The notes below the pieces were generated by a model, which saw nothing but the letters and a program-made list of their open reading frames with translations, did no database searches and had not been told where the DNA came from. This document shows, one piece after another, positions 5,597-59,488 of a stretch of DNA of 64,000 nucleotides (its first letter is position 1; each line of letters begins with the position of its first letter). The position numbers were made by a program, and so were the translations under genes. Source of the stretch: Thermoflexales bacterium (GTDB taxonomy: Bacteria > Chloroflexota > Anaerolineae > J036 > Brachytrichaceae); NCBI GenBank assembly GCA_019694215.1, contig JAIBCK010000001.1:1-64000 (forward strand). Direction: 5' to 3'.

Positions 5597-5668
5597 TGGG
5601 CCCGGCAGGATTCGAACCTGCAACCCACGCCTTATGAGGGCGCTGCTCTGCCATTGAGCTACAAGCCC
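5597..5668 (-). tRNA. tRNA with CAU anticodon (Met or Ile2)
   Basis: A 72-nt cloverleaf read on the minus strand. The 7-bp acceptor stem is GGGCTTG/CGGGCCC with two G-U pairs, the D-arm is GCTC/GAGC, the anticodon loop is CTCATAA (anticodon CAT), and the T-loop is TTCGAAT with a GCAGG/CCTGC stem. The discriminator is A and no CCA is encoded. A CAU anticodon fits elongator tRNA-Met or, after lysidine modification, tRNA-Ile2. The acceptor stem lacks the unpaired first base expected of initiator tRNA. Identity between Met and Ile2 is not resolved by eye. Confidence 0.93.
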
Positions 5669-12809: not shown

Positions 12810-14018
12810 TCAGACGTTGCGGCCTGTTTCGAGCACATCGCCGCGCGTGACAAACTGTTGCGCGAAGCGCTCCTTGTAGTCGTCGAGCAGCGCGTGCGTG
12901 CGAGCGGCATCCGATGAACGCACGATCAGCCCGGCGTGCCAGGGCTTGTTCATCCGCCACACCACCTCGGGCGCATCAAAGCCGCTCAGATCCGGGTGCT
13001 CCTGTTTGGCGAGGCAGACCAGGATGCCGGCCGTGTCATGGCGCCGCTCGCCCAACGTATAACTTTCACCCTTGGCGTTGGCGATCTCGATGCGCGCCCA
13101 TTCGCGCCAGGGATTGATCCCGGTGGCCTGCTCCAGCATGTCGGCCAGGTTGGCACCGCCCACGCGCGCGGCGATTTCGAGGAAGTAGTACTTCCCATCG
13201 GCGCGGCCACGGATGAACTCGGCATGCGTCGGGCCACGCACCATCCCCAGGTCGCGAAGAAGCTGCTTGTTGAGCGCGAGCAATTGACGGCTTTCCTCGC
13301 CGCTGGGATCCAACGTGGCGCTGGTGAAAACGCCGCCGCCGTGCGACACGCTGAGCGGCGGCGCGCCGTATTTGCTCGCGGTCGCCCACTGCACCTCGCG
13401 CTCCCAGGTCAGGGCGTCAACGTGATAGACATCGCCAGGCACGAAGTGCTCGAGCACATAGTTCGACTGGGCATCGCCGAGGCGCTCGAGGTGCGGCCAC
13501 AGCTCATCCGGGTGCTCGATCTTCTTGATGCCCATCGCGCCGGCCTCGCCGCGCGGCTTGAGCAGATACGGCGGCGCGATGCGGCCCATGAAGTCGCGGA
13601 TCGCATCGTAGTTGATCACGCCGACGAAGGCCGGCACCGCGATCCCCGCCTCGCTGGCCTTGACACGCATGGCGAGCTTGTCGCGGAAGTAGCGCGCCGT
13701 GGTGTCGCCCATGCCCGGGATGCGAAGGTGCTCGCGCAGGGTGGCGGCCGTGTCGACCTCGTAGTCATCGAGCGGCAGGATGCGGTCGATGACGGTACTG
13801 CGTGCGAAATACGAGACGGCGTTGATCACATGCTGTTTGTTGGCCAGGCTCGGCATGTAATAGATGTCGCTCAGGCAGTCGTGCGGCCAATCCCCATCGC
13901 GCCAACGCTCCTCGGTGAGCAGGTACACCCGTGCGCCGAGGCGCTTGAGCTCCTGCATGACGAGCTGGCCTTTGACGGCGCTGCTGATGCACAGAAAGGT
14001 GATGGGTCGTTCAGCCAT
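12810..14018 (-). CDS. ATP-grasp ligase convergent to the ligase cluster
   Basis: 402 residues with a preATP-grasp domain (1-105) and an ATP-grasp core: Lys154 (YLLKPRGEAGAMG), Glu190 (YVLEHFV), Glu281 and the RVGG loop (FLEIAARVGGAN). It resembles amino-acid or peptide ligases of the carbamoyl-phosphate-synthase-like group. A Shine-Dalgarno (AGGAGCG) lies 8 nt before the ATG. It ends 17 nt from the kinase gene, tail to tail. Being a fourth ligase beside three others makes a shared pathway plausible, although it has its own promoter. Confidence 0.83.
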   Translation of the reverse strand: MAERPITFLCISSAVKGQLVMQELKRLGARVYLLTEERWRDGDWPHDCLSDIYYMPSLANKQHVINAVSYFARSTVIDRILPLDDYEVDTAATLREHLRIPGMGDTTARYFRDKLAMRVKASEAGIAVPAFVGVINYDAIRDFMGRIAPPYLLKPRGEAGAMGIKKIEHPDELWPHLERLGDAQSNYVLEHFVPGDVYHVDALTWEREVQWATASKYGAPPLSVSHGGGVFTSATLDPSGEESRQLLALNKQLLRDLGMVRGPTHAEFIRGRADGKYYFLEIAARVGGANLADMLEQATGINPWREWARIEIANAKGESYTLGERRHDTAGILVCLAKQEHPDLSGFDAPEVVWRMNKPWHAGLIVRSSDAARTHALLDDYKERFAQQFVTRGDVLETGRNV

Positions 14019-18349: not shown

Positions 18350-19102
18350 ATGCGAAGGTGGGATCGGCAGCGGTTGGGATTTTGGTTCGCCATCCTGGGC
18401 GGACTGGCGCTGGTGGTGACGGTGCTTGGCATCGGCCTGCAAGCGTCAGGAACGACGAGCCAAGCGCACCCTGGCGCGGTGTTGCGACCGGCCCCTGCCC
18501 CGAGCAGCGCGCGGTTCGGCTATGACCCGCTCTCGGGCGCGGAGCGCAGCACCGCGCTGCAGCTGGCGCAGGCCGATGCCCGCGTGGCGGAAATCCTGTC
18601 AAAAGGCACGCGCAGTGAAGTGCTGGTCGTCGAGCGTCACGAGGAGGACAAGGCCGTCTACGCGGGCGGGAGCTGGGACCGGCGCGCAGACGTGGTGGCA
18701 TATGCCTATGGCAGCGATGTCGCCGTGCGCGTCGTGGTCAACCTGACGCAGGCGCGCGTCGACGCCGTTTCCGCCCGGCAGGGCGATCAGCCTCCATTCA
18801 ACGCCGTCGAGACCGACGCCGCCTTTGCGAGGGCCCTGGCCGACACGAACACGGGACCGCTCATCCGCACTGCCTATGCGAAACGCGCTGGAACCGCGCT
18901 GCGCGATGCAGCCAATGTCCAACGCTACGCGTTCGTCTTCGTGCCGGATGAGGTGCCAGAGGCGACCAGCTCGGAGGCGCGAGCCTGCGGGATTTCCCGT
19001 TGTGCGCTGCTGATTCTGGCCGTCCAGGGCGGCGTGCTCGACACCGCCATCGTCGTCGACTTGTCGCACGACCGGGTGGTGTATGACGGAGGGCAGCACT
19101 GA
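18350..19102 (+). CDS. Probable N2/N3-like part of a split copper amine oxidase
   Basis: 250 residues. A hydrophobic segment at about 10-32 acts as signal or anchor. The exported part resembles the non-catalytic N2/N3 domains of copper amine oxidases: a YDPLSGAER start like the usual DPLT-AEE segment, a RRADVVAYAYGSD strand pair and a GDQPPFNAVE segment like the typical GVQPPL-x-E turn. It contains no copper or quinone site. The stop overlaps the ATG of the catalytic-domain gene by one base, so the two are translationally coupled and likely assemble outside the cytoplasm. The homology call is by eye and only moderately certain. Confidence 0.6.
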   Translation: MRRWDRQRLGFWFAILGGLALVVTVLGIGLQASGTTSQAHPGAVLRPAPAPSSARFGYDPLSGAERSTALQLAQADARVAEILSKGTRSEVLVVERHEEDKAVYAGGSWDRRADVVAYAYGSDVAVRVVVNLTQARVDAVSARQGDQPPFNAVETDAAFARALADTNTGPLIRTAYAKRAGTALRDAANVQRYAFVFVPDEVPEATSSEARACGISRCALLILAVQGGVLDTAIVVDLSHDRVVYDGGQH

Positions 19103-20307
19103 TGCGCCGCGCAACCGCCCTGCTCCTGCCCGCGCTCGCCTTCGCCGCCGCCCTTATCGTGGCCGCCCTCGCACAACGCACTCCCGCGCCCGCCGACGGC
19201 CTGGCCCCACGCGACACGAATGCGCCACTGGCGTGCTCGCCATCGTTCACCGTCGCGATCACCTTCACCAATGGCGCCAACTGGACGTTCTGCTGGGAGA
19301 TGCGGACGAAGGAAGGCGTGGTGTATCGTGATGGACGTTATGCGCCGCCGGGCGGCGCGCCGATCCACATCTTCGCCCAACTCGGCCTGGCGCAGATCTT
19401 TGTGCCATATGACACGGGCTCACCGCGCCTGCATGACATCTCGGACTTCGGCATGGGGCCGACCAGCGTCGTCCTGGATGCGGCCGATTGCCCGGGCGGC
19501 AGCCTGCTCAGCGATGGCCTCAAACTGGTCGTGTGCCAGCAGGTGGTCGGGCACGGGCTGCGGCAGATCAACAACAGTGACAGCTCGCAGAAGGAGGCCC
19601 TGGTGATGTGGAGCTCGTCGCAGATCGGCGCCTACAACTACATCCCGCAGTGGATGTTTCACGATGACGGCACCATCGAGCCGACCATCGGCGCGAGCGG
19701 CAAGCTGCAATACGTCGACACCAACTCCAATTTCGCCGCCTTCGGGTGGCCGCTGGGAGGTGGTCGCTTTGGCCGCAGCCACGTGCACACGATCTACTAT
19801 CGCCTGGACTTTGACATCGGCCCCGCAGGCAACGACGTCGTCGAGCAGTACGAGTTCGGTGGCTCGGGCGGCTTCCTGCGGCGGATCTTCTCGACGACGC
19901 TGACGACCGAGACCGCGGCACAGTTCAGCGCCGAGCGCTTCCGTTTCTGGCGCGTCGTGGACCCGACCGCGACCAATGCGGACGGGCATCCCATCTCGTA
20001 TGAGATCTCGCCGCGGGTCGGCTACGCCCATCGCGTGATCGCCGAGCCGTGGACGCAGAACGACGTCTATGTCACGGAGTACGCGGTCGACGAAATCTGC
20101 GCCACGCACAACGGAAGCAACTGCGGCGGCAGCGGCAGCGATGTTTCGGGCTTTGTCAACGGGCAGACCGTGCACGACCCCGTCGTCTGGGTGGGCGTAA
20201 CCTTTCACCACGTCCCGCGCGATGAGGACGAGGTGGTGATGCCGATGCACTGGGAGAGCTTCCGGCTCTACCCGCGCGACCTGACCGCGGTCAACCCGAT
20301 GCCGTAG
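19102..20307 (+). CDS. Copper amine oxidase catalytic domain, stand-alone
   Basis: 401 residues with a signal peptide (1-25), then only the C-terminal catalytic domain of copper amine oxidases, compared with 600-700 residues for full enzymes. Candidate catalytic base Asp112 (HDISDFGMG, aligned to the usual FDxGEYGLG), the topaquinone-precursor Tyr178 in GAYNY, copper ligands His227 and His229 (SHVHT) and His370 (HHVPRDEDEVVMP) are all present. The usual Asn before the quinone Tyr is Ala, and the Asp/Glu after it is Asn. It would oxidise primary amines to aldehydes outside the membrane if active. Confidence 0.78.
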   Translation: MRRATALLLPALAFAAALIVAALAQRTPAPADGLAPRDTNAPLACSPSFTVAITFTNGANWTFCWEMRTKEGVVYRDGRYAPPGGAPIHIFAQLGLAQIFVPYDTGSPRLHDISDFGMGPTSVVLDAADCPGGSLLSDGLKLVVCQQVVGHGLRQINNSDSSQKEALVMWSSSQIGAYNYIPQWMFHDDGTIEPTIGASGKLQYVDTNSNFAAFGWPLGGGRFGRSHVHTIYYRLDFDIGPAGNDVVEQYEFGGSGGFLRRIFSTTLTTETAAQFSAERFRFWRVVDPTATNADGHPISYEISPRVGYAHRVIAEPWTQNDVYVTEYAVDEICATHNGSNCGGSGSDVSGFVNGQTVHDPVVWVGVTFHHVPRDEDEVVMPMHWESFRLYPRDLTAVNPMP

Positions 20308-59416: not shown

Positions 59417-59488
59417 CTGGGGCGGCTGGATTCGAACCAACGAATGGCGGATCCAAAGTCCGCTGCCTTACCACTTGGCGACGCCCCA
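59417..59488 (-). tRNA. tRNA-Gln (UUG)
   Basis: A 72-nt cloverleaf on the minus strand. The acceptor stem TGGGGCG/CGCCCCA includes the T1-A72 pair, the discriminator is G73, the anticodon loop CTTTGGA gives TTG, and the T-loop is TTCGAAT. T1-A72 and G73 are known glutamine identity elements. CCA is not encoded. Confidence 0.95.

Follow-up and report, generated by a model that had tools for sequence, protein, structure and literature searches.

Do two overlapping genes for exported proteins together make up one copper amine oxidase (CuAO), an enzyme family whose single-chain members occur in bacteria, fungi, plants and animals? The genes lie in the window, the 64,000-nt stretch of Thermoflexales DNA that was analysed, and the first-pass annotation had offered two readings of them: gene fission with reassembly outside the membrane, or a divergent two-component family. 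The second reading is well supported. The split is present in many genomes, its catalytic domains fall on one side of a single branch of a tree, dN is below dS and no frameshift is involved, and the pair is a real, conserved two-component relative of CuAOs. We consider it probable that gene 1 and gene 2 encode one exported two-subunit CuAO-like enzyme, in which the N2/N3 protein would re-associate with the catalytic domain and Tyr178 would become a topaquinone-type cofactor.

Domain identity of the two gene products

Gene 1 and gene 2 (Table 1) have base 19102 in common, in agreement with the one-base TGATG overlap that had been claimed for them, and their products of 250 and 401 aa sum to 651 aa, against a claimed combined size of about 650 residues. 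The sequence AAGGAG precedes the start of gene 1, and a ribosome-binding-site-like GGAGG for gene 2 is located within gene 1, 9 nt 5′ of the gene 2 start. Each predicted model begins with a hydrophobic leader in the form of a helix (residues 7–26 in gene 1, residues 8–24 in gene 2), suggesting that the two products are exported separately.

Table 1. Features of the gene pair in the window; codon positions of active-site residues were derived from residue numbering and the start of the gene.
Feature	Position	Strand	Basis and remarks
Gene 1: N2/N3 (D2–D3) subunit, 250 aa	18350..19102	+	fold and profile; ATG 18350, TGA 19100–19102
TGATG stop/start overlap, gene 1/gene 2	19100..19104	+	sequence
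Gene 2: catalytic (D4) subunit, 401 aa	19102..20307	+	PF01179; ATG 19102, TAG 20305–20307
Asp112, catalytic base by homology	19435..19437	+	alignment; kept in 57/57
Altered cofactor motif Gln-Ile-Gly-Ala-Tyr-Asn-Tyr, residues 174–180, precursor Tyr178	19621..19641	+	alignment
His227-x-His229, first two copper ligands by homology	19780..19788	+	alignment; kept in 57/57
His370, third copper ligand by homology	20209..20211	+	alignment; kept in 57/57

Gene 2 had been described as a catalytic domain alone, and sequence and fold comparisons agree. In particular, its product matches PF01179 with E 1.6e-38 (133.1 bits; cut-off 27), and its AlphaFold2 model (pLDDT 86, pTM 0.84) superimposes on AGAO chain 2yx9_A with a Z of 36.1 and an rmsd of 2.5 over 346 residues. 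The claimed N2/N3 likeness of gene 1 was assessed by fold and profile comparison, because a search of its single sequence against PDB sequences gave no match at E ≤ 10. The predicted model of gene 1 (pLDDT about 95 across most of residues 61–250) has CuAOs as all of its best 50 Foldseek matches listed. Specifically, residues 49–250 superimpose on residues 87–282 of ECAO (Z 10.8, rmsd 3.9 over 181), and the model superimposes on residues 9–193 of AGAO (Z 9.9), in both cases the part that precedes the catalytic domain.

Profile searches confirmed the likeness of gene 1 to N2/N3 for profiles of its split-gene relatives but not for the single sequence against Pfam. The single sequence gave nothing above cut-off, with PF21994 (AGAO-like_N2) at E 0.6; a diaminopimelate epimerase match (E 0.13) was rejected as chance. 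A profile built from seven relatives of gene 1 matches the N-termini of single-chain CuAOs with a best E of 4e-10, and a 30-row N2/N3 profile (A5) matches them down to E 1.3e-10. AGAO-like_N2 is reached at E ≤ 0.01 by 4/30 members of the gene 1 family (best 3e-5), the window's gene 1 not being among them. Both products match parts of the NCBIfam primary-amine oxidase model PRK11504/NF008559, in the right order: gene 1 residues 53–179 match model positions 11–131 (E 3.1e-4, 19.3 bits) and gene 2 matches positions 371–627 (97.9 bits), each score being under the curated cut-off of 651.

Recurrence of the split and origin of its parts

Both genes are present in another genome of the same genus (G001), with a 4-base ATGA overlap, an adjoining permease region as in the window, and identities to the window of 54% for gene 1 and 69% for gene 2. 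Between the two genomes, Nei–Gojobori dN/dS is 0.45/1.79 for gene 1 (ratio about 0.25) and 0.27/1.30 for gene 2 (ratio about 0.20), so that dN is below dS in both, the ratios being rough because dS is high. A scan of the genome collection with the gene 2 protein (P0002) alone found no relative, and a scan with the catalytic alignment A3 found at least 39 loci, a lower bound because the scan relied on two short peptide patterns. These loci are distributed over Chloroflexota, Proteobacteria (mainly Granulosicoccaceae; also Pseudomonadales and Methylomonas) and Corallococcus.

Tabulation of the scan loci together with the window, the loci of a Chloroflexota genome sample and L005, with copies of the same locus left out, gave 48 loci with four gene layouts. 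A search for the same pair in other genomes, proposed with the first-pass annotation, was successful: N2/N3 plus catalytic pairs account for 14 loci, in Chloroflexota and with the window included. The order N2/N3-CatA-CatB, with an extra catalytic-like gene, accounts for 30 loci (L029, L031–L035, L037, L038, L040, L042, L044–L046, L048–L057 and L059–L065), 29 of them in Proteobacteria; N2/N3 is visible in 29 of the 30, and the remaining one, L042, begins at a contig edge. One locus is a permuted fusion, catalytic-TM-N2/N3 in one chain (L039:503-2578, the same locus as L009). An alignment (A6) of this fusion with rows of both modules put N2/N3 rows in catalytic columns and was left unused. Three loci (L043, L047 and L005) have a catalytic gene with no N2/N3 found alongside. 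At another place, the L047 genome has an additional N2/N3-CatA-CatB set, in which the end of the locus truncates CatB. Junctions mostly abut, overlap by 1–4 nt or lie within about 15 nt, with start codons picked nearest the stop; the L004/L058 junction is GTGA. The window is a two-gene case, because in its genome the CatA profile A8 finds gene 2 only, and A8 and A5 together find just the window genes. The three-gene form, the permuted fusion and the altered cofactor motif (Table 1) all go beyond what had been claimed for the locus.

Two genes are spread over two frames, by decay or sequencing error: the CatA gene of L031 (L031:955-2227), which is the one three-gene locus in a Caldilineaceae genome, and an N2/N3 gene (L074:655-1454), both in − strand coordinates.

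P0002 matches 4/99 relatives searched, window included, and within the window's family its matches are confined to its own genus (2/28). Among the 400 genomes of the Chloroflexota sample, A3 matches 38 (10 above 400 bits) and A5 matches 24 (10 above 100 bits), and the same 10 genomes hold the catalytic gene above 400 bits and the N2/N3 gene above 100 bits. These 10 genomes belong to four families, with seven in one. The weaker A3 and A5 matches are mostly inside long single-chain frames, and two genomes (G542 and G633) have weak N2/N3 matches without an A3 catalytic match. In the class of Granulosicoccus, 10/369 genomes match (3 above 350 bits), and in Myxococcota 21/195 (10 above 350 bits). 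No N2/N3 gene was found in the flanks examined of the ten Myxococcota catalytic genes above 350 bits, of which L110 starts near a contig edge, and N2/N3 matches are absent from the whole of the Corallococcus genome. Because these catalytic genes stand without N2/N3, the N2/N3 protein appears to be dispensable for some members.

Two further gene groups came to light in these searches. In Corallococcus CA053C, genes for LodA (PF17990, PF18417; lysine oxidase family) and a LodB-like flavoprotein adjoin the lone catalytic gene (L043:7077-10249); a LodB query gave no match within the flanks examined of the nine other Myxococcota loci, where LodA would fall mostly outside. Another set of Chloroflexota loci (L014–L023) has frames of about 400–864 aa with a weak match to the start of PF01179 only, and the readable members are lipoprotein-like single chains in which, by eye, the HxH copper pair seems to be lost.

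In a maximum-likelihood tree built quickly from 64 catalytic domains, 22 single-chain and 42 other domains lie on either side of one branch with an SH-aLRT of 100, and the 14 CatA rows form one group with an SH-aLRT of 89. Support values are SH-aLRT only, and the tree has no outgroup. The set omits 15 loci of an already well-represented group (L048, L049, L051–L057 and L059–L064) and pieces shorter than 280 aa, a cut that removes both parts of the L031 paralogue (CatA); the placement of L005 is unsure because its branch is long (2.33). Because the tree has no outgroup, it accommodates both a fission and an ancestral unfused state. Under the latter, N2/N3 and the catalytic domain began as independent proteins, whose fusion produced the single-chain CuAOs. 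We regard this as unlikely; it concerns origin and is compatible with a two-subunit enzyme. The single branch between split-type and single-chain rows would suit it, as would the lone catalytic domains and the reversed-order fusion, both of which show free combination of the modules, but fission fits a tree with no fixed root equally, and single-chain CuAOs span bacteria, fungi, plants and animals.

Active site and cofactor motif

The gate Tyr of CuAOs corresponds in the alignment to Tyr103 of gene 2 (P0002 numbering). Tyr103, Asp112, Tyr178, His227, His229 and His370 are all kept in 57/57 catalytic partners, comprising those of the 48 tabulated loci and nine further Myxococcota proteins, and partners with the full six-residue site go down to about 31–35% identity. 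The gene pair resembles the topaquinone CuAOs AGAO, ECAO and HPAO in its catalytic fold, three His, precursor Tyr, catalytic Asp and gate Tyr, and likewise in the N2+N3 fold of gene 1. It differs from them in having two chains, whereas D2, D3 and D4 are there on one chain, in belonging to a separate clade, and in the motif around the cofactor Tyr. The pair is set apart from ordinary CuAOs because it is not single-chain and does not have T-X-X-N-Y-D/E, with the metal site and catalytic residues kept.

The CuAO consensus motif is given as T-X-X-N-Y-D/E in the available text of PMC3382800. The window motif, Gln-Ile-Gly-Ala-Tyr-Asn, departs from this consensus, and the usual motif of the split family, present in most split members, is S-x-x-G-A-Y-x-Y. 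Among the 57 catalytic partners, 39 have Ala immediately ahead of the cofactor Tyr and none has Asn there; two have Asp or Glu immediately behind it, and one has the consensus Thr. Of the 28 single-chain control rows, 26 have residues in this stretch; Asn stands in 23 of them, Ile replaces it in 3, and 25 have the Thr; the rows with Ile in the Asn place are L076, L086 and L093.

The available text of two papers on model enzymes reports the effects of comparable changes: AGAO N381A remains able to make topaquinone, 180-fold more slowly and with kcat lowered to 1/160 (PMC9491219), HPAO N404A has 5–10% topaquinone, and HPAO E406Q has tenfold slower biogenesis (PMC3382800). The Ala before Tyr178 does not forbid the cofactor, because AGAO N381A still makes topaquinone, and normal topaquinone chemistry is not assured, because Asn-to-Ala substitution cripples cofactor formation in AGAO and HPAO. 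Changes that cripple the model enzymes are natural here, and must therefore be tolerated, be compensated, or go with another cofactor.

The last possibility would make the pair a real copper oxidase in which Tyr178 is not converted to topaquinone and contributes instead to a copper/tyrosyl site or another Tyr-derived cofactor, the Asn having been lost since the quinone flip under its control was no longer needed. Replacement of Thr, Asn and Asp/Glu together (kept in 1/57, 0/57 and 2/57) points in this direction, as does the impaired topaquinone formation of the corresponding mutants (PMC3382800, PMC9491219, as far as the accessible text goes). But 57/57 partners retain both the gate Tyr and the catalytic Asp, whose role is on substrate bound to the quinone; this fits a quinone mechanism, and Ile is in the Asn place in 3/26 single-chain rows. 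On balance, we judge a non-topaquinone cofactor to be rather improbable.

A probable two-subunit enzyme and its relatives

In the two-subunit enzyme that we favour, the stop/start overlap would probably couple translation of gene 1 and gene 2, and the two products would be exported separately. The D2–D3 module of gene 1 has a hydrophobic helix at its start and may hold the complex at the membrane; it would most likely dock on D4 outside the membrane as in single-chain enzymes, and reassembly of the two proteins there is plausible. D4 would dimerise, and copper on His227, His229 and His370 would drive self-oxidation of Tyr178 to a topaquinone-type cofactor, in a setting altered by Ala in place of the quinone-holding Asn; the cofactor would then convert primary amines oxidatively into aldehydes, releasing H2O2. 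In AGAO, N3 residues line the substrate channel, and a separate N2/N3 protein could for this reason set access to the site.

CatA keeps the full active site in 0/31 pieces (30 loci; two pieces partial), and the tandem CatB keeps it. CatB proteins of 949–1443 aa have C-terminal adhesion-type domains in 4/4 scanned (L029, L032, L037 and L038), namely He_PIG, TSP3, F5/8 type C or P-domain, and one N2/N3 protein (P0004) has, by eye, a lipobox-like leader; a surface location fits because of these tails and this leader. A binding or structural protein on a CuAO fold, with no catalysis, would have precedents in CatA and, by eye, in the single-chain L014–L023 group, and would go with the adhesion-type domains of some CatB proteins, but we consider it very unlikely: the six residues are kept in 57/57 partners down to about 31–35% identity and are lost in the neighbouring CatA, the pattern expected of a selected active site. 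An ordinary single-chain gene broken by a frameshift, whether from sequencing or from assembly, would account for the one-base overlap and for a combined length of one enzyme. It is ruled out because genomes from several phyla, independent of one another, have the same break, each with a leader ahead of the catalytic domain (the argument that the first-pass annotation had drawn from the second signal peptide) and with a motif and clade that differ from those of single-chain CuAOs.

CuAOs of known structure were in 2012, according to the accessible text of PMC3382800, all homodimers with D1–D4 along one chain. One position of the dimer may be filled by CatA in three-gene loci. A parallel is the Ni-dependent metformin hydrolase MetCaCb, as described in the available text of PMC11271267, in that active and inactive(-looking) catalytic paralogues are encoded together; it differs in belonging to an unrelated family, and a CatA-CatB complex would be putative and confined to loci other than the window, whose genome has no CatA. 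A broader proposal, which we put forward tentatively as a possibility, is that the window contains the most basic version of a group of exported multi-subunit copper/quinone oxidases that has been overlooked, one in which N2/N3 would cap or anchor the catalytic part. Lacking its Asn clamp, the cofactor might be a freely flipping topaquinone that suits unusual and perhaps polymeric amines, or it might derive from Tyr in some other way. The three-gene form might be an obligate active/pseudo-catalytic heterodimer with half the active sites.

We found no description of split or three-gene CuAOs in the open-access literature searched; the accessible part of a 2025 CuAO phylogeny (PMC12058724) has no mention of Chloroflexi that we could find and uses 'split' for tree branches only. 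With its recurring split and the changed residue next to its cofactor, the pair may represent a form of this classic copper enzyme that is little known. Natural separation of N2/N3 from the catalytic domain makes the role of N2/N3 addressable by adding or omitting it, loss of the Asn across the family is a natural experiment on making and holding topaquinone, and the CatA pseudo-subunit offers a way to probe cooperation between dimer halves.

The surroundings of the pair were named by eye. On the other strand, an ABC-type permease-like ORF is located upstream of gene 1 and a phosphodiesterase-like ORF downstream of gene 2. An ATP-grasp-like ORF is located about 4 kb from gene 1 (12810–14018, other strand); none was noticed in the flanks of related loci, where the first 60 residues per ORF were inspected, and a graspetide group co-occurring with copper amine oxidase is mentioned in the accessible text of PMC13097080. 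Two tRNA genes are located on the − strand of the window, at 5597–5668 and 59417–59488.
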